A stretch of DNA of 64,000 nucleotides, from the NCBI RefSeq assembly GCF_019973735.1, contig NZ_AP024463.1, forward strand, positions 1,736,001 through 1,800,000. The letters are read 5' to 3'. Positions within the stretch are counted from its first letter, which is position 1. Each line of letters begins with the position of its first letter. This document shows positions 21,354 to 33,930 of this stretch, one piece after another. This stretch comes from Arachnia rubra. GTDB taxonomy: Bacteria; Actinomycetota; Actinomycetes; Propionibacteriales; Propionibacteriaceae. The position numbers were made by a program, and so were the translations under genes. The notes beneath the pieces were generated by a model. It saw only the letters and a list, made by a program, of their open reading frames with translations, ran no database searches and had not been told where the DNA came from.

Positions 21354-22206
21354 ATGACTGAACCACCGGAACCAATGCCCCAGCACGCGGAGCACTTCCC
21401 GCTGCTTCCAGGGGATCCTGTACGCATAGGCGATTTCTGGATCGACTCGCGACTGGCAGAGAGCCCCGCGGGGGTTGTCTACTGCGCGCACGCAGACGGC
21501 TCGGACCCGGTGATGCTCATCCACCTGAAAGACGGGGCGGCCTCGGATGCCGCGGCACGGGCGCGCTTCTCCGGTGAGATCAACGCCATGCACATCGACA
21601 CGGTCGTGGCACGCGGCGGGCAGGATCAGGACGAAGGACGCATGGCCGTGCGTTTCCGGGATGAGGATGACGACCCGATAGTCGCCTCTCACCGCCCGCT
21701 GGCGCCCTGGGTCGCCCTGGCCTTCTCCGGTTCCCCCGAGGCTGTTGCCGAGGCCCAGCGGATACTCGCGGCTGTTGACCTCGTGCACACACCGCAACTC
21801 GGCTCACCTGCTGGACCGGACTTCCACCTGCACTGGTGGCAGAACGCACAGACGGGGACGTGGCGGATGTGGCCACTACCCTGGCCGGGACGTCGTGACC
21901 GAGCCGGATGGCTCAGTCTGCTGACCTCCTTCCTCCTGATGCTGCTGATCGCGGCAGTGGCCGTTCTGCTTGCCATCCTGGTCTTCCAGAACCAGCCCAA
22001 AGTGGCCCCCCCCAGCACCTGTCCCAACCTCTGCCAGCGCATCTGCCTCCAGCTCCTCAAGCGAGTCGCCTTCGTCTGCGTCACCCTCGTCCTCCGACAG
22101 CGGAGAGCCCTCCGAACCGCCCAGCCGGTCGGACACCCCGTCCATGCAGCAGCCGTCAGGAGAGGAATCGGGTCCTGGAAGCCCAAGCCCCGAACGCAAG
22201 CTGTAA
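21354..22206 (+). pseudogene. Membrane protein with degenerate kinase-like N-terminus; frameshift at a C8 tract
   Basis: The N-terminal ~185 residues contain GDFWIDSRLAESPAGVVYCA then VMLIHLKDGAASDAAARARF, reminiscent of the glycine loop and N-lobe of Ser/Thr kinases but without catalytic motifs; this comparison is weak. A transmembrane helix follows (LTSFLLMLLIAAVAVLLAIL). At 22006-22013 a run of eight C occurs. In the annotated frame the sequence then becomes Cys/Arg-rich and runs to 22343, into the next gene. In the +1 frame it becomes a Ser/Pro/Glu tail ending at 22206, far more natural for this position. One C too many (sequencing error or slippage) is the best explanation. Confidence 0.6.
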
Positions 22207-22321
22207 CCAGGCTTCACATCCACTGCTTCTGGGAAACACAGGAAACGTACAAGTTCGCCCGGCTTACTGGTGAGCGTCATGAGGGAACAACCTCTTCCGC
22301 CGAGACCACCGAGGCCAGAAC

Positions 22322-22909
22322 ATGGAACTCCTGCCCTACCTAGCCGACATCATCGCGATCTGCATCCTTGTTTTCGCCGTCTATCTGCCACGGCACCACC
22401 GGCGCGACCTAGCGGTCGCCTACCTGGGCGTCAACATCGGCGTCATGGCGGTGTCCATTGTGCTCGTGAACAGTGCCGCGGCTGCGGGCCTGGGGCTTGG
22501 CCTGTTCGGTGTGCTGTCGATCATCCGGCTGCGCTCCGATGAGCTGGCACAGCATGAGGTGGTCTACTACTTCAGTGCGTTGGCCCTTGGGCTACTGGGC
22601 GGGCTTGGCGGCCCTATCACCACCTACGCGCTGATGGGACTCATCGTCGCCGTCCTGGCTGTCGTCGACACTTCACGGTTCAGGCGGGGAGCCAGGCGTG
22701 AGGTGGTCAATCTCGACCGCGCCATCACCGACCCAGAGGAGCTTCGCTACGAGCTCGCAACGCGTCTCGGCGGTCGGGTGCTCGGTGTCAACGTCCAGCG
22801 CCTGGACTTCGTCACCGACTCCACGCTCGTCGAGGTCCGCTACGCCCCCGGTGCCGCCCTTCCCGCCGCTGAGCTTCCCATCGCTGACGAGATGGAAGTG
22901 CTGCGATGA
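22322..22909 (+). CDS. DUF4956 membrane protein
   Basis: This 195-residue protein has about four membrane helices in its first 120 residues (LADIIAICILVFAVYL, VAYLGVNIGVMAVSIVLV, a Gly-rich GLGLGLFGVLSIIRLRS segment and YALMGLIVAVLAVV) and a cytosolic C-terminal domain. FGVLSIIRLRSDELAQHE is characteristic of DUF4956. These genes are typically next to a VTC-domain polyphosphate polymerase gene, as here, where the stop codon overlaps the next start (ATGA). A channel or assembly role for polyphosphate is plausible but unproven. Confidence 0.85.
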   Translation: MELLPYLADIIAICILVFAVYLPRHHRRDLAVAYLGVNIGVMAVSIVLVNSAAAAGLGLGLFGVLSIIRLRSDELAQHEVVYYFSALALGLLGGLGGPITTYALMGLIVAVLAVVDTSRFRRGARREVVNLDRAITDPEELRYELATRLGGRVLGVNVQRLDFVTDSTLVEVRYAPGAALPAAELPIADEMEVLR

Positions 22910-23643
22910 GCCTGAAGGATCTCGCACCGGTGCATCTTGACGAACTCAATGCCACCGCGGCGCTGATGAAACGTGTGGACCGCAAGTACCCACTGCACCG
23001 CCGGGCTGCCGAGGCAGTCCTGGAGGAGCTCCCTGCCGGAACCAGGGTCCTGTATATCGGGGGGCGAGCGGAGTTCGGATACACATCCGTCTATTTCGAC
23101 ACCACCTCCCGTGACTCCTATCTGCTGGCCGCCAGAGGACGCCCCCACCGGTTCAAGGTACGGGTCCGCAGCTACCAGGACTCCGGGGAAGCCTTCCTGG
23201 AGGTGAAGACCCAGCACAGGGGCAGCACGGTCAAGCAACGTATCCCTCACGATCCGGGCGCTCTGTTCACGATCGATCCCGAACAGTACGGCTTCATCAG
23301 CCGCTGTCTCGCAGCCGGGGGGATACGCGGCCTGCGTCCGCAGTGGTTGAGACCGAGCTTGGAAACCAGCTACCTGCGCACTACGCTCCTCACTCCCGAC
23401 GGCCGGACCCGGGTCACGCTGGACCAGGGACTCGTCTGGACAGAAAACGCAAGAACACTGCGCAACCCGAAACTGGCAATCATCGAGAGCAAATCGGGAT
23501 CAGCGCCCAGCCCCGCAGACCGGGCCCTCTGGTACCACGGCTACCGCCCCCAGCGGATCTCGAAATACGCGACGGGCCTAGCAGCCCTTCACCCCGAACT
23601 TCCGGCTAACCGCTGGCGCCGGGTCCTCAAACGCCACTTCTGA
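22906..23643 (+). CDS. VTC-domain protein, probable polyphosphate polymerase
   Basis: This 245-residue protein matches the VTC tunnel fold, which in yeast Vtc4 makes polyphosphate from ATP. Key charged residues expected in the tunnel are visible: RVDRKYPL near residue 23, FKVRVRSYQDSGEAFLEVKT with paired Arg and Glu-x-Lys, LAIIESKSG and RISKYATG. No membrane segment; it probably binds the DUF4956 partner at the membrane. Translation is coupled to DUF4956. Activity is inferred from fold and residues. Confidence 0.82.
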   Translation: MSLKDLAPVHLDELNATAALMKRVDRKYPLHRRAAEAVLEELPAGTRVLYIGGRAEFGYTSVYFDTTSRDSYLLAARGRPHRFKVRVRSYQDSGEAFLEVKTQHRGSTVKQRIPHDPGALFTIDPEQYGFISRCLAAGGIRGLRPQWLRPSLETSYLRTTLLTPDGRTRVTLDQGLVWTENARTLRNPKLAIIESKSGSAPSPADRALWYHGYRPQRISKYATGLAALHPELPANRWRRVLKRHF

Positions 23644-23668
23644 CCTCGAACTCCGGAAGGATTTGACC

Positions 23669-25153
23669 ATGAGAATGCGAAACCTCAAGCTCGGATTTGC
23701 CTCCCTAGCCGCGGTGGCCGTCCTGGCCGGCTGCTCTTCGGCCGCGGCGACTTCGGACGGCTCCACAGAGACCGCGGTCCACTCCGCATCCACTGGCGGC
23801 AGCAGCGATGCCTTGACAACGATGCTTGCCGAAAACCAGAAGTCCCACTACACCGAGACCGACTCGACCTACGACGAAGCCTCCGTGGTGGATGTCACTC
23901 TGAGCGGCTCCTCAGCTACCGCCTCCGGCAGTGGGGTCACGGTGGACGGCTCCACTGTCACGATCACGGCCGGGGGCACCTATCGACTGACCGGTTCGTT
24001 AGAAGGGCAGGTGGTCGTGAACGCCGACTCCCAGGATGTGAAGGTGATCCTGAACGGGGTTGACCTCACCAACTCCTCTGGTTCCCCGGTGGTGGTCACA
24101 GCCGCCGACGAGGTAACTCTCATCCTGGCGGATGCAACCGCCAACACGATCTCCGACGCCAGCAGCTACGCAGACACCTCTACCGGCGCTCCCTCATCAG
24201 CTATCGACTCCGCCAGTGACCTGAGCATCGCCGGCAACGGGTCGCTGACGGTGACGGGAAACAACAACGATGCCATCAACTCCGCTGACGGACTGGTCAT
24301 CGCTGGCGGCAATATCGCGGTGAAAGCCGCGGATGACGGTATCCGGGGCAAGGACTACGTCATCGTCTCGGGCGGCACCGTCACGGTTGATGCCACCGGC
24401 GACGGCGTCAAGTCAGACAATGAGACCGACGCCGATCGTGGCTATGTGCTGATCGAGAACGGCAGCCTCACCGTCGCGTCCGGGGATGACGGAATCAAGG
24501 GTTTCAACGACGTCGCGATTGCAGGGGGTGACATCACCGTCTCGAAGTCTGTCGAGGCAGTTGAGGCCCAGAACATCGTCGTGGCTGGCGGCGAGACCAA
24601 GCTGACCAGCAGCGACGACGGTATGAACGTATCGGGAGACGCGCCCCAGGGATTCACCATCACGGGAGGGTCATTGACGATCGACGCCGAAGGTGACGGG
24701 ATGGACTCCAACGCGGCCGGCACCATCGCAGGGGGCAGCGTCGTCATCTACGGGCCGACGATGGGAGGCAACGGATCGGTCGACGTCGAGCAAGGACTGA
24801 CCATGACAGGAGGCGAACTGTGGGCCGTCGGGTCTTCCGGAATGGCGGAGTCGCCCTCGCAGAACTCCACCCAGGCCTTCGTCTTCACGAACCTGAACGG
24901 GACCGCCTCCGGCGAGGTCTCGATCGCGGATTCCAATGGGAACGTGCTCGCCACCCAGAGCTCCAGCAAACAGTACTCATCCGTGCTCTACTCCGGTCCC
25001 GGCATCTCGGCCGAGGGAACCTACCAGATCCTGCTGAACGGCCAGTCTGCCGGCACGGTCGCCGCCAACCAGTACGCGACCGGCATGGGCTCTGGCCCGG
25101 GCAGCGGACAGCCCGGAGCCGGCCAGCCAGGTGGCGGCAGGTCCGGGCGCTGA
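23669..25153 (+). CDS. Carbohydrate-binding (Cthe_2159-like, DUF4353) surface lipoprotein
   Basis: The ATG at 23669 follows GGAAGGA. A signal peptide ends in a lipobox (VLAGC), so the 494-residue protein is lipid-anchored. The body is Gly/Asp-rich with repeated short strands such as DGIRGKDYVIVSGGTVTVDA, DGIKGFNDVAIAGGDITV and DGMDSNAAGTIAGGSVVI, the right-handed beta-helix with acidic (Ca-binding) turns seen in Cthe_2159. The C-terminus is Gly/Pro/Gln-rich. It lies 25 bp after the VTC gene, and VTC/DUF4956 genes often accompany such proteins or CotH kinases. Ligand unknown. Confidence 0.8.
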   Translation: MRMRNLKLGFASLAAVAVLAGCSSAAATSDGSTETAVHSASTGGSSDALTTMLAENQKSHYTETDSTYDEASVVDVTLSGSSATASGSGVTVDGSTVTITAGGTYRLTGSLEGQVVVNADSQDVKVILNGVDLTNSSGSPVVVTAADEVTLILADATANTISDASSYADTSTGAPSSAIDSASDLSIAGNGSLTVTGNNNDAINSADGLVIAGGNIAVKAADDGIRGKDYVIVSGGTVTVDATGDGVKSDNETDADRGYVLIENGSLTVASGDDGIKGFNDVAIAGGDITVSKSVEAVEAQNIVVAGGETKLTSSDDGMNVSGDAPQGFTITGGSLTIDAEGDGMDSNAAGTIAGGSVVIYGPTMGGNGSVDVEQGLTMTGGELWAVGSSGMAESPSQNSTQAFVFTNLNGTASGEVSIADSNGNVLATQSSSKQYSSVLYSGPGISAEGTYQILLNGQSAGTVAANQYATGMGSGPGSGQPGAGQPGGGRSGR

Positions 25154-27104: not shown

Positions 27105-30100
27105 TCACTTCGTGGCCGCATCGATGGCAACCCAGTCCAGGCCAGCCGGTGCCAGTGACTGGACGGTGGCCAGCAGGCCGAGACGGGCCGCTCGCAGACT
27201 GGGGTCCTTTGCCATCACGAGGGTCTCGTCGAAGAATCGGGCTATAGGCTTCACCAGCTCCTGTGCGGACTTCGCGAAACCGGAGACAGACAAGCCAGGC
27301 TCCCTGCCTGAAATGATCTGGGCTAGGTCTTTCTCCGCGTCGTCGACCAGGACAGCAGCATCGAAGCCCACCGGCGTGCCCGTCGGCACTATGCGGTTGA
27401 TCCTCACCACAGCTTCCACGACAACCCGCCAGCCGGCGTCCCCGGTCAGGACCTCCAGGTCACGGATCTTCGCATCCGCGTCCGCCGGGCGGGTGGCCGA
27501 GGGCAGGACAGCAGCCACCAGGTCAGCCGAGTGTCCCTCATCGCGCATCAGCTGCGCGTAGCGGCCGGTGATGAACTCCTCAGCCGCGCTCACCGCCTCG
27601 TCTGAGACCTCGATGCCCTGGTTCCTCAATGCCGCGGCTGCTGACAGTAGGCAGTCACGAACACCGATGCCAGCCAGTCCGGGGACCTCGCGCAGGATAC
27701 GGGCAACACCGAGCGCCGCCCGGCGCAACCCGTAGGGGTCGGAGGAACCGGACGGCTTCGCGCCGAGAGCAAACATGGCCATCAGCAGGTCGAAGCGATC
27801 TCCGAGAGCCAGCAGCGCGCCTGGCAGCGAGGCCGGAACCGCATCGGCCGAGGTGTGGGGCTGCTCCATCTCGCGCAGAGCGTCAGCAACCGCCTGCGGC
27901 TCACCTTTGCGGAGCGCATACTCACGCGCCACGAAACCAGCCAGGCTGGTCATCTCGGTGACAAGGTTCGTGGCGAGGTCGTACTTGGCAAGCGCACCCG
28001 CTCGTGTAAGAGTAGCCGCCTGGTCGGCGTTTAGGTGCAGGCCTTCCCCCAGCGTGGAAGCTACGGCCGCGATGCGGCGAGCCCGCTGCCCCATGGAACC
28101 GAGACGATTCTCAAAGGTCAGCTTCTCCAGGCCTGGTACGAATTCCTCGACAGAGTCGGCCTCAAGATCCTGGTTCCAAAAGAACAGGGAATCCTCGTAG
28201 CGTGCCCGGAGCACTGATTCATTACCGGCTGCGACCACGGCTGCGTCGCATATGCCGTTGGCCATGGTGACGAAATAGGGAAGCAGCTTCCCATCGGCGT
28301 CCCGGACCGGGAGGTAGCGCTGATGCTTGGCCATGACGGAAATCAGGATCTGGTCCGGCAACTCCAGATAGCGCTCATCGAAACCGCCGAGCACCCCGAC
28401 GGGTTCCTCCACCAGATTGGCGATCTCATCCACGAGCGCTGGATTGTCTGCGAAGTCGATGGCCCCTCCCACGCTCGCGGCCAGCTTCCCGGCCTGCTCG
28501 ACAACAGCGGCCCGCCGCTGCGAGAAGTCAAGCACGATCCGGCCTGCACTGAGCAAGGGCAGCAGATCATCGGCGGACGCGACCTCGTGGAATCCGACTG
28601 GGATGCCATCGCTGCGCGTCCTGCTGTCAGCGGAGGCTGCGGTGGTGCGTTGCAGATAGGTCTTCCGGCCTGCGGCAATCTCCGAGATGCGGGCCGGAAC
28701 CACCTGATTGCCCCAGAGAGCAACCAGCCAGCGAATGGCCCGGGAGAAGGACAGCTTCGGATCGCACCAGCGCATGTTCTTCTCAGCACGCAGCCCCAAG
28801 ACACAGTCCTCGACGACGCCCCTCAGCACCTCAAGAGCACTCTTGCCAGGCGATTCGACGGCGACACAGGCATGCTCGGCACCGTTCACCTCAGCCTTAA
28901 TGACCTGCTCCAGACAGACGCCCTGGCCACGCATGAAACCCTGCAGCGGTTTGGCAGGGTTGCCGTCGGCGTCGAAGGAGGCAGCCCACTTCGGTCCCTT
29001 CCGCAGGTTTGTGGCATCGGGTTCGTGGGCAGCGACCTCCGCGACGGTGGCCACGATACGCCGGGGCGTACCCTCGACGGTGATCTCACCGTGGCTCAGG
29101 CGTGAGGCCGCGAGCCCGGCAGTGACCGCATCTCGCACAGCCCGTACCGTGGGGGCGACAACATGCGGGGGCAGCTCTTCAAGCCCGATCTCCAGCACAA
29201 AACTCTGGGGCTGACTGGTACCGGGTTCCTCGGCCATGGGTTCATGGCCGCCCGGGGTCTGCCCTGCGGACTTGAGCAGCGGGAATCCGAGCTCCTCCCG
29301 CCTCTCCACCCACAGCGCAGCGGTGTCACGCATCAGGCGGCGCATGGTACTAAAGGCCTGGGCGCGCTCTGTGGTGGAGATGGCGCCGCGGGCATCGAGG
29401 ATGTTGAAGGCGTGGCTCGACTTCAGGATGTAGGTGTGGGCGGGCACCGGCAGCCGAGCCTCGACCATGCGGGTGGCCTCCGAGACATAGTCCTCGTAGA
29501 GCCGTCGGTTGACCTCAATATCGGCATCATCCAGGTAGTAGCGGCTCATCTCGTACTCCTGCTGGCCGAAGGCCTCACCGTAGGTGACGATGCTGCCGTC
29601 GGCCTTGCGCGCATATGCGATGTCCTTGAAATGCGTGACGCCCTGCTGCGCCATCAGGATGCGCTCCATGCCGTAGGTCAGTTCAACCGGGATCGGCCCC
29701 AGATCCTGCCCACCGACCTGCTGGAAATAGGTGAACTGCGTGATCTCCATGCCATCCAGCCATACCTCCCAGCCAAGCCCCCATGCTCCGATCGCTGGCT
29801 GGGCCCAGTTGTCCTCGACGAAACGCACGTCGTGGGCGTCGAGGTCGATCCCGAGGGCCTCCAGCGACCCGAGGTAGAGCTCCTGCGGGTCGCCGGGTTC
29901 GGGTTTCAGGATCACCTGAAACTGGGTAAACGTCTGAATACGCATCGGGTTCTCGCCATAGCGGGAGTCGTCGGGGCGCACCGACGGCTCCACGTAGGCC
30001 ACATCCCACGGCTCAGGGCCAAGCACCCGCAGCACCGTCGCCGGGTTCATGGTGCCGGCCCCCACTTCCGAGTTGTAGGGCTGCCAGGTCAGGCAGCCGC

Positions 30101-30152
30101 GCGAGGTCCAGTAGTCGGACAGGATCCGGAGGGCGTCTTGCATCGTCAGCAC
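27105..30152 (-). CDS. glyQS: Glycine--tRNA ligase, fused alpha and beta subunits
   Basis: This 1015-residue protein joins the bacterial alpha subunit (about 1-300; SRGCLTWQPYNSEVGAGTMN, PSVRPDDSRYGENP, catalytic core) to the beta subunit (about 320-1015; FVLEIGLEELPPHVVAP, an HD-like and anticodon-binding tail ending VMAKDPSLRAARLGLL). Most actinobacteria use the unrelated single-chain, eukaryote-like GlyRS, so this is unusual. The start is a GTG at 30152, giving the family-typical MLTMQDAL; TAGTCT lies 6 nt upstream, pointing to a leaderless mRNA. ATG at 30143 is the alternative. The DUF885 gene ends 9 bp upstream. Confidence 0.92.
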   Translation of the reverse strand: MLTMQDALRILSDYWTSRGCLTWQPYNSEVGAGTMNPATVLRVLGPEPWDVAYVEPSVRPDDSRYGENPMRIQTFTQFQVILKPEPGDPQELYLGSLEALGIDLDAHDVRFVEDNWAQPAIGAWGLGWEVWLDGMEITQFTYFQQVGGQDLGPIPVELTYGMERILMAQQGVTHFKDIAYARKADGSIVTYGEAFGQQEYEMSRYYLDDADIEVNRRLYEDYVSEATRMVEARLPVPAHTYILKSSHAFNILDARGAISTTERAQAFSTMRRLMRDTAALWVERREELGFPLLKSAGQTPGGHEPMAEEPGTSQPQSFVLEIGLEELPPHVVAPTVRAVRDAVTAGLAASRLSHGEITVEGTPRRIVATVAEVAAHEPDATNLRKGPKWAASFDADGNPAKPLQGFMRGQGVCLEQVIKAEVNGAEHACVAVESPGKSALEVLRGVVEDCVLGLRAEKNMRWCDPKLSFSRAIRWLVALWGNQVVPARISEIAAGRKTYLQRTTAASADSRTRSDGIPVGFHEVASADDLLPLLSAGRIVLDFSQRRAAVVEQAGKLAASVGGAIDFADNPALVDEIANLVEEPVGVLGGFDERYLELPDQILISVMAKHQRYLPVRDADGKLLPYFVTMANGICDAAVVAAGNESVLRARYEDSLFFWNQDLEADSVEEFVPGLEKLTFENRLGSMGQRARRIAAVASTLGEGLHLNADQAATLTRAGALAKYDLATNLVTEMTSLAGFVAREYALRKGEPQAVADALREMEQPHTSADAVPASLPGALLALGDRFDLLMAMFALGAKPSGSSDPYGLRRAALGVARILREVPGLAGIGVRDCLLSAAAALRNQGIEVSDEAVSAAEEFITGRYAQLMRDEGHSADLVAAVLPSATRPADADAKIRDLEVLTGDAGWRVVVEAVVRINRIVPTGTPVGFDAAVLVDDAEKDLAQIISGREPGLSVSGFAKSAQELVKPIARFFDETLVMAKDPSLRAARLGLLATVQSLAPAGLDWVAIDAATK

Positions 30153-31824: not shown

Positions 31825-32865
31825 CTATCGGGTGACCAGGTGCCGGCTGCGGGCATTTGCCCTCTTGTGAGTGAACACCAGGGCACGCTGGGCTGCGAAA
31901 CTGACGACGAAGAGTGTCACCTCCGTCACCAACTTCGCCAGGACCAGCGGCATCAGCATGGACAGGGTCCGCAGCAGCACATAGTTGGCGGCCAGGATCC
32001 CGCACGCCAGGGCCGCGTACCGCAACGGAGTGCTGCGGTCGCCGTCGCGGAACACCGCATGCCGGTTGAGAAGATAGTTGACGGTGGCTGACAGCACCCG
32101 GGCGGCAATCACGCTGGCTAGGAGATTGTGGGTCACCGCCATCAGGACCAGCAGGGCCACGAAGTCGACGGCGAAGCCCGCCAGCGACGATCCGGCAAAG
32201 GCCAGCAGGGGACGGTAAACCCGCCACGAGTCCTGGACCGGGCGGAAGTGAGAGCTCTTGTTGCCGTGCAGATAGACAGTCTCAATCTCGATCTCCCGGA
32301 TGCCTATCCCAGCCTGCCTGGCCTGGAGCAGCAGCGACAGCTCGTACTCGAAACGCTCCCCCGGGATGGTTCCGAGCCATTCGAGCAGGCTCGGCGGGTA
32401 GCCGCGCAGCCCGGTCTGGGTGTCACCCACCCGGATCGCGGTCAGGGTCTTGAACAGCCAGGAGGTCACCTTGTTCCCGACGGCGCTGCGCAGTGGCACC
32501 TGACCCGTGAAACGGCGTCCCCCCAGCACCATCTCGCGGGATTCAACATCCACCTCATGAGCCACACGCATGATGTCGGGTACTTTGTGCTGCCCATCCG
32601 AGTCGGCGCAGACGACCGCCTCACCCAGGTAGTGTCTCCTCGCGATGGCGAACCCGGTTTTCAACGCGTGGCCTTTCCCCCGGTTGACAGGGTAGCGGTG
32701 CACGGTGGCGCCATGGATGCGCGCCAGTGCGAAGATTTCGTCGAAGTCAGGACCGGAGCCGTCATCTACGACCAACACGTCGGGAACGGATGGCTGGGAC
32801 CGCAACTCACGGATGAGCGAGATGAGTGAGTCTCCGGGCTCATAGGCGGGAATGAGGACGAGCAT
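31825..32865 (-). CDS. Family 2 glycosyltransferase fused to a GtrA-like membrane domain
   Basis: This 346-residue protein starts MLVLIPAYEPGDSLISLIRE (ATG 32865, GGAAAG upstream). Residues 1-220 are a GT-A domain with VVDDGSGPDF, CADSDGQHK (metal-binding DSD) and GLRGYP, as in polyprenyl-phosphate sugar transferases. Residues about 230-340 form four membrane helices of the GtrA type (SLAGFAVDFVALLVLMAV, VIAARVLSATVNYLLNRHAV). The fusion would make a lipid-linked sugar and move it across the membrane for glycosylating surface polymers. It begins 4 bp after the phosphodiester glycosidase gene. Confidence 0.9.
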   Translation of the reverse strand: MLVLIPAYEPGDSLISLIRELRSQPSVPDVLVVDDGSGPDFDEIFALARIHGATVHRYPVNRGKGHALKTGFAIARRHYLGEAVVCADSDGQHKVPDIMRVAHEVDVESREMVLGGRRFTGQVPLRSAVGNKVTSWLFKTLTAIRVGDTQTGLRGYPPSLLEWLGTIPGERFEYELSLLLQARQAGIGIREIEIETVYLHGNKSSHFRPVQDSWRVYRPLLAFAGSSLAGFAVDFVALLVLMAVTHNLLASVIAARVLSATVNYLLNRHAVFRDGDRSTPLRYAALACGILAANYVLLRTLSMLMPLVLAKLVTEVTLFVVSFAAQRALVFTHKRANARSRHLVTR

Positions 32866-32869
32866 GGTG

Positions 32870-33841
32870 TCACTTTCCAATCCACAGGATGTCGCTGGTG
32901 CCACGTTCCCTGTTCTTGCCGAGCGGGTTGTTGACGAGGGATCCGTTGAAGACCATCTGGGAAGAGCCACCGCCGTCGAGGTTGTAGGCCACCTGTGCGC
33001 CCAGCTCCACAAAAAGCTGGGCGAAGCCGGTCATGGTGACTCCGTTGCTGTAACCAGAGGCCCGCCCGTCGACCACGATGAAGACGAAATGATTCGCGGC
33101 GATCATCCCCAGTCCGGTCCTGGGCTGGGCGCCCTGGATGGAGTGGTTGCCGAAGTTGGTGTCGATCTCAAGCTGGTCGATGCCGGAGACGGCTGCTCCC
33201 CCATCGACGAGCGTGGGACCGAAGGAAAGCGTCTGCCAGGCGCCGTCGGAGATCAGCTTTGCGGCATTGGTCGCGGTCTCGTCATAGCTGATCATGGAGC
33301 CGTCGCGCATGATCGCCAGTCCCTGCCGGGCCGGTTCATCCCGGAACGCGACACCATCGCGGATAATGATCCCGGTGTCACGGAACCCGTAGTAGTCGCC
33401 GTTGATGGCAAACAGCGCCCCGGCGCTTTGGGCAATTGCCGTCGGGTACTCGATGATGTTGGTGCCGAACGTGTTCTTCGCGAAGGCATTGCGTACAGCA
33501 GTGACATCATTCAGCCTCACATCAGCCACGAACCAGGCCATGGCTGAATTCCCGGACCCAGAAGAATGGGACGTTATCGTGATCTGCCGGTCGCTGGAGG
33601 TGTAAGTCGTGCCATCAATGACCCCGTCCCCGGCTGAGGTGGCACCGGTCGTGGCGGAACCGCTGTTCTGGGTACCTGGCAGTCCCTGATAGTCAGAGGC
33701 GGAGGTGACATCGGCATGCTCGATCAGGTAACGGTCGAGGGCCCAGGCCGTGCCGCCCACGGCGGCAACTCCCACAGCACCCGCGGAACCGGTGATGAGG
33801 GCTCGGCGGGACAGGGGCGGTGCGGGTCGTGATTTCGTCAT
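32870..33841 (-). CDS. Secreted phosphodiester glycosidase (NAGPA domain) protein
   Basis: This 323-residue protein begins MTKSRPAPPLSRRALITGSA. The twin arginines before a hydrophobic stretch resemble a Tat signal, with AWA as the likely cleavage region. The mature part has LFAINGDYYGF, GPTLVDGG, TGLGMIAANHFVFIVVDGR and YNLDGGGSSQMVFNG, the conserved block of the NAGPA/DUF2233 family acting on sugar phosphodiesters and tied to exopolysaccharide or wall polymer metabolism. GAGGGTG precedes the ATG at 33841. It heads a minus-strand run with GT2-GtrA. Confidence 0.85.
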   Translation of the reverse strand: MTKSRPAPPLSRRALITGSAGAVGVAAVGGTAWALDRYLIEHADVTSASDYQGLPGTQNSGSATTGATSAGDGVIDGTTYTSSDRQITITSHSSGSGNSAMAWFVADVRLNDVTAVRNAFAKNTFGTNIIEYPTAIAQSAGALFAINGDYYGFRDTGIIIRDGVAFRDEPARQGLAIMRDGSMISYDETATNAAKLISDGAWQTLSFGPTLVDGGAAVSGIDQLEIDTNFGNHSIQGAQPRTGLGMIAANHFVFIVVDGRASGYSNGVTMTGFAQLFVELGAQVAYNLDGGGSSQMVFNGSLVNNPLGKNRERGTSDILWIGK

Positions 33842-33930
33842 GCCAGACACCCTCGCGAACCGCCCTGTGGGAAGCCTGTGGTGACGCTGCGCGCGCGGCA
33901 TGAGCATCCCCGCTACACTTGTCCCCGCTC

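Follow-up and report, generated by a model that had tools for sequence, protein, structure and literature searches.

A conserved DUF4956, VTC and Cthe_2159 gene module in Arachnia rubra: a candidate envelope system with an exchangeable extracellular partner

VTC-domain proteins occur in many bacteria, and the described systems closest to the one presented here come from both eukaryotes and Gram-positive bacteria. In the eukaryotic VTC complex (Vtc1/Vtc3/Vtc4), the polymerase is a tunnel domain with conserved basic and acidic residues, and a membrane partner accompanies it. Gram-positive Pel operons are described as adjoining genes for CotH, a polyphosphate polymerase and DUF4956 (PMC7112168, PMC12345266), and the NELoc-2 cluster of Clostridium perfringens as containing VTC-domain, 'tubulin' and CotH genes (PMC2879425). 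Finally, cellulose and polygalacturonic acid are the described ligands of Cthe_2159 from Clostridium thermocellum (PMC6712302). Here we analyze a 64-kb stretch (hereafter the window) of the single-contig 3.3 Mb genome of Arachnia rubra (C1:1736001-1800000), in which genes for DUF4956, a VTC-domain protein and a Cthe_2159 lipoprotein follow one another in this order on the plus strand (22322-25153; Table 1). The VTC-DUF4956 pair is of a known kind; what this locus adds is a form in which Cthe_2159 is the partner, together with a NAGPA-type phosphodiester glycosidase and a GT2-GtrA protein.

Table 1. Coordinates of the module, its proposed additional members and the upstream neighbor within the window
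Feature	Position	Strand	Evidence and remarks
DUF4956 membrane protein	22322..22909	+	Pfam E 6.8e-57; likely VTC export or regulatory partner
VTC-domain protein, stand-alone Vtc4-like tunnel polymerase domain (by homology)	22906..23643	+	Pfam E 2.6e-25
Cthe_2159 beta-helix lipoprotein	23669..25153	+	Pfam E 3.2e-66; solved relative 4peu E 4.5e-33
NAGPA-type phosphodiester glycosidase, proposed fourth member	32870..33907	-	Pfam E 1.2e-32
GT2-GtrA protein, polyprenyl-phosphate sugar synthase/flippase type	31825..32865	-	Pfam GtrA_DPMS_TM 2e-12, Glycos_transf_2 8.5e-12
ORF1, kinase-like membrane protein (called frame)	21354-22343	+	Without Pfam match

Like the eukaryotic complex, the locus combines a tunnel domain bearing the same conserved residues with a membrane partner; unlike it, the locus has no SPX domain and no fused membrane domain, the partner is DUF4956, and the product would exit to the outside of the cell instead of the vacuole. 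With the Pel-linked module it shares the adjacency of VTC and DUF4956 and an extracellular third gene, whereas CotH is missing from the A. rubra locus and Cthe_2159, NAGPA and GT2-GtrA are found there. The sole CotH match found in this genome (C1:355674-356447, L128) lies ~1.4 Mb from the module. No Pel gene was found among the scanned 17-34 kb flanks (MoxR, DUF58, two VWA, HAD, glycerate kinase, DUF885, NAGPA and GT2-GtrA genes), the gene at 27105-30152 and the rest of the genome lying outside this search. NELoc-2 is similar in that VTC and CotH genes are close together, and our guess is that its small membrane 'tubulin' genes beside VTC may correspond to DUF4956; it differs in having two VTC genes, and Cthe_2159 is not named in the description that we used. 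The likeness to C. thermocellum Cthe_2159 (4peu/4phb) concerns the beta-helix domain, whereas a link to VTC is not mentioned in the account of that protein available to us (PMC6712302). In the open-licence literature, we found no paper combining any two of VTC domain, carbohydrate-binding domain, DUF4956 and polyphosphate polymerase domain, and, by title and start of abstract among the matches listed, none on the module itself.

All three identities proposed in the first-pass annotation, which was made from the sequence alone, were matched in Pfam, and the ATGA overlap that it had noticed between the DUF4956 and VTC genes was confirmed in a tight plus-strand packing. The 245-residue VTC protein has VTC as its single Pfam match, and the same scan found neither an SPX domain nor a Vtc1-type membrane domain on it. 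Yeast Vtc4 is the best match of the VTC family profile (3g3q, E 1.2e-14), with Vtc2 and Vtc3 ranking behind. The equivalents of Vtc4 R264, R266 and E426, as well as those of K200, K281, R361, R373 and K458, which we take to be key tunnel positions too, are identical in all 37 aligned proteins, and the equivalent of K294, presumably another such position, is kept in 36 of the 37. This alignment holds 37 of 45 references, frame-broken, inserted, duplicate and near-identical proteins being left out and the window copy standing for L001, and it bears out the earlier view that the charged tunnel residues are intact. Yeast Vtc4 is described as inactivated by R264A/R266A/E426N (PMC9911596). Based on tunnel homology and these residues, the domain is assigned as a Vtc4-like polymerase, which probably synthesizes polyphosphate.

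The DUF4956 protein is modeled with five predicted helices followed by a beta-alpha-beta-beta (ferredoxin/ACT-like) domain (AlphaFold, mean predicted local distance difference test score, pLDDT, 85.7). R69 and R71 are invariant among 43 aligned DUF4956 proteins (43 of 45 references, with the same kinds of sequence left out). Since the VTC protein, by its length and domain content, carries no membrane part, DUF4956 would be the natural exit or gate, a role to which its near-constant pairing with VTC and its topology also point. The Cthe_2159 reading frame opens at TTG 23663, and the ATG at 23669 is preceded by GGAAGG. Profile and solved beta-helix relative both place the protein in the Cthe_2159 family by homology. 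It carries a lipobox (..LAGC) and 54 D+E vs 15 K+R across the 474 residues read, which agrees with its earlier description as a lipid-anchored protein with acidic turns, and it is exposed on the outside of the cell. The lipobox pattern is present in 28 of 31 relatives (31 of 34 references used), and, of the three misses, two show a cysteine in a somewhat different sequence context. In one genome (G103, L062), the Cthe_2159 gene is broken across two frames.

A survey of 147 genomes of the family found VTC in 48, DUF4956 in 51 and Cthe_2159 in 49 (one below the cut-off), VTC co-occurring with DUF4956 in 47 genomes and with Cthe_2159 in 43. Of the named relatives found, [Pseudopropionibacterium] massiliense (L002) is the nearest, its VTC being 81% identical. 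At 49 of the 52 VTC sites of the family, DUF4956 lies within 6 kb, upstream in 44 cases; Cthe_2159 lies downstream at 36 sites, and CotH within 8 kb at six. In a sample of the phylum (276 genomes), VTC was found in 28 genomes, DUF4956 in 29 and both in 28. The 31 VTC sites of this sample, counted after the split VTC matches of G320, G332 and G406 had been merged, include DUF4956 at 30, Cthe_2159 at 12, CotH (within 8 kb) at 17, both of the latter at one and neither at three. These associations provide good support for DUF4956-VTC-Cthe_2159 as a conserved envelope module. In G040 and G017 (L067-L070), DUF4956 adjoins Cthe_2159, and a VTC match without DUF4956 is found elsewhere in the genome.

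The core occurs in two orders, DUF4956-VTC and VTC-DUF4956, each of which has examples with either third gene, CotH or Cthe_2159. On a tree of 62 VTC domains (L011, L062 and L072 dropped, fragments below 180 residues left out and the window copy merged with L001), the Cthe_2159 label requires eight changes, at least seven of them forced by well-supported branches, and the CotH label seven, at least six of them so forced. No shuffle out of 500 gave so few changes, but these counts are far from a single origin; they are to be read with the very long branch of L101, long-branch warnings and 'none' labels that may reflect contig ends in mind. The extracellular third gene therefore alternates between Cthe_2159 and CotH and has been swapped several times, and this repeated re-association suggests that the core acts in concert with an extracellular protein. 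It would be scarcely credible that the genes are chance neighbors devoid of functional link. Split loci do occur, but the co-occurrence in two samples of different depth, the re-association on the tree and the overlap between genes all argue for a common function.

The Pel-linked module of Streptococcus intermedius lends some weight to a different, rather doubtful explanation. In this view, VTC-DUF4956 would act as a regulator at the membrane: it would sense or buffer ATP or phosphate there and adjust a surface polysaccharide, as next to Pel operons, and little or no polymer would leave the cell. SIR_1592, described as a four-helix membrane protein with an ACT domain and taken by us as the DUF4956 gene, and the CotH-type SIR_1594 altered Pel level and aggregation when deleted, whereas the predicted polyphosphate polymerase SIR_1593 could reportedly be deleted with aggregation and Pel retained (PMC12345266). 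The DUF4956 protein of A. rubra is likewise predicted to end in a ferredoxin/ACT-like domain, and 8 of 38 loci have genes for a histidine kinase and a response regulator in the neighborhood of VTC (L079, L086, L088, L089, L091, L095, L100 and L102; one representative of each type was identified by Pfam). However, a pure sensor would have no need for the catalytic and tunnel residues that are kept. Furthermore, at 11 loci without Cthe_2159 (~5 kb on each side; 70 of 96 picked open reading frames scanned), the 25 families listed, out of 88, included none of Pel type, so that Pel is not a constant neighbor. The DUF4956-like/VTC/CotH synteny was reportedly not found outside the Pel locus (PMC12345266); considering the 17 CotH-associated sites of the phylum sample and the families listed at these 11 loci, the arrangement is probably wider.

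Two further genes, which the first-pass annotation had not listed as partners, travel with the trio. NAGPA and GT2-GtrA span 31825-33907 on the minus strand, NAGPA lying 7.7 kb from the trio. The NAGPA assignment is one on which profile and solved relative agree, the protein being related to solved human NAGPA-type chains, and by inspection it appears to bear an N-terminal signal or anchor. The listed frame of GT2-GtrA starts at 33012, its likely ATG, by inspection, being the one at 32865, and the protein weakly matches the dolichol-phosphate-mannose synthase 5mlz (E 1.2e-4). Clustering of neighbors showed NAGPA adjoining four VTC loci. Among the strongest 60 of 81 NAGPA matches, a strong match in a short open frame was found in 36 family genomes, 31 of which have VTC. 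In these 31, NAGPA lies within 2.4 kb of VTC in 14 and at 8-10 kb in four, which form the window's clade.

Profiles built from the window pair delineate a distinct NAGPA subfamily with an adjoining GtrA gene in 29 genomes, all with VTC and 28 with Cthe_2159. The NAGPA alignment took 18 proteins from 33 NAGPA sites. Among the sites examined, the pair thus occurs in 29 of the 48 genomes with VTC and in 0 of 99 others. This count leaves out a single long-frame site in each of G002, G015 and G143 and the weakest 21 of the 81 matches; G045, whose NAGPA is generic, and G075, with no GtrA located within 11 kb, do not score as pairs. Within the genus itself, the pair is present in six of eight VTC genomes and was seen in none of six others, one G143 site being left out. 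In the stretches fetched, no GtrA gene was found near NAGPA in five VTC-less short-frame genomes or at 20 long-frame sites, and these NAGPA matches score just 22-73 bits, as opposed to at least 254 bits for subfamily members where scores were printed. At five loci (L066, L077, L080, L120 and L122), the five genes are co-directional and 19 of 20 stop-to-domain gaps are shorter than 60 bases; at L113-L119 and L121, the NAGPA/GtrA pair is divergent to the core. We propose NAGPA and GT2-GtrA as fourth and fifth members, which would point to a phosphate-linked sugar at the same surface.

These partners also bear on another explanation, to which we likewise give little credence: VTC may be a tunnel enzyme with a different product. 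This could, for example, donate phosphate or pyrophosphate for the decoration of a glycan or protein at the surface, giving a phosphodiester on which NAGPA would act. NAGPA, GT2-GtrA and CotH handle phosphodiesters and phosphorylation, and a PPK1 domain is already encoded elsewhere in the A. rubra genome. Nevertheless, the best match of the VTC profile is the polymerase Vtc4, ahead of Vtc2 and Vtc3, and the key residues are kept. The presence of PPK1 suggests that VTC is not required just for intracellular storage of polyphosphate.

The explanation that we prefer, and for which we judge the chances to be about even, is an envelope system for polyphosphate or a similar anionic phosphate polymer. 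First, the cytosolic VTC domain would build the polymer from nucleotide triphosphate, as homology and the intact residues suggest. Second, DUF4956 would move the polymer across the membrane or gate its release, in the manner of the yeast Vtc1-type membrane domain. Third, the acidic Cthe_2159 protein on the outer face would hold the polymer, most likely via divalent cations, or link it to a wall glycan. Finally, NAGPA and GT2-GtrA may act at the same surface, providing a lipid-phosphate-linked sugar and processing it. Several points weigh against this reading. The highly acidic lipoprotein would repel polyphosphate unless bridged by cations. Cthe_2159 does not adjoin VTC at 16 of the 52 family VTC sites and, reciprocally, 16 of 52 Cthe_2159 places have no VTC nearby, DUF4956 being present at four of these 16; the pair was not found in 19 of the 48 VTC genomes, and the P values for co-occurrence ignore shared ancestry. 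No solved structure was significantly related to DUF4956 (best Foldseek E 0.11; VIA matches at noise level). The dispensability of SIR_1593 is also unfavorable, and beyond that deletion, no tested function of a bacterial VTC protein was found in the open-licence literature searched, as far as the consulted portions of its sources go, nor was any polyphosphate measurement on the module found.

An extension of this proposal, speculative enough that we hold it somewhat less probable than either of the two alternatives above, is that the product of the five genes is a surface polyphosphate carrying sugar. VTC would make the chain, DUF4956 extrude it and GT2-GtrA make and flip a polyprenyl-phosphate sugar, while NAGPA, acting outside on the sugar phosphodiester, would cap or uncap the chain and Cthe_2159 anchor the product. 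If true, this would be a bacterial phosphate-glycan surface polymer of a kind not found in the open-licence literature searched, and the phosphate polymer exported by the CotH form could even serve a secreted kinase, for which cytosolic ATP is out of reach. The near-constant membrane partner, the swappable outside partner and the sugar-phosphate pair lead to a testable proposal, namely that some bacteria make polyphosphate for display, apart from the PPK store.

Upstream of the trio lies open reading frame 1 (ORF1), divergent to MoxR-DUF58-VWA-VWA; downstream are genes for a HAD hydrolase, glycerate kinase, glyS (27105-30152, labeled from reading of the sequence, the gene lying outside the Pfam scan) and a DUF885 protein, followed by the minus-strand pair. 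The first-pass annotation had proposed a four-gene unit that includes ORF1 as a kinase-like member and may be tied to the MoxR-DUF58-VWA operon. Its DUF4956, VTC and Cthe_2159 part holds, and the neighborhoods of relatives uphold the lipoprotein as a partner. ORF1 fares otherwise, as it is found at four of the 52 family VTC sites, all in the window's own genus. A unit including it is contiguous in the window, as it is in G070, G036 and G134, three close relatives, but is very improbable and largely refuted by its distribution. ORF1 is present in 143 of 147 family genomes vs 48 for VTC, and MoxR is divergent to it in all 30 loci examined, with or without VTC, which leaves the MoxR link to the module unsupported. 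In the short stretches covering these 30 loci, HAD was found in 17, DUF4956 in four and neither in nine. Three relatives lacking the module at this site, G139 (L036), G124 (L037/L063) and G143 (L064/L038), run MoxR-ORF1-HAD and on to glyS, suggesting that the trio either entered the window's clade between ORF1 and HAD or disappeared from the others. ORF1 is a neighbor of the trio, not a member.

The kinase likeness of ORF1 is itself partial. Pfam at E 0.1 gave no match, and NCBIfam no kinase match. The folded part of a structural model (mean pLDDT 71.5) resembles a protein-kinase N-lobe, and all 50 Foldseek matches listed are protein kinases (best PknI, E 7e-3, probability 1.00; none at E <= 0.001). 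HRD and DFG are motifs of a complete two-lobe kinase catalytic domain. We rejected ORF1 as a complete protein kinase, for the model shows only an N-lobe-like fold followed by the membrane helix at 185-212, with no catalytic C-lobe in between; of the kinase-like membrane protein announced earlier, the N-lobe likeness stands and the complete catalytic domain does not. At a run of C (22006-22013), ORF1 departs from the family frame, and its called C-terminus is out of frame relative to 29 relatives, a break due to slippage or sequencing error; intact copies exist. In the 29 relatives read (L033-L061), the frame remains open through a Ser/Pro/Gly-rich tail whose last two residues are Lys-Leu or Arg-Leu. 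Across the family, ORF1 (21354-22010 in the window) is a membrane protein whose kinase N-lobe-like domain is accompanied by a conserved C-terminal basic-Leu ending.

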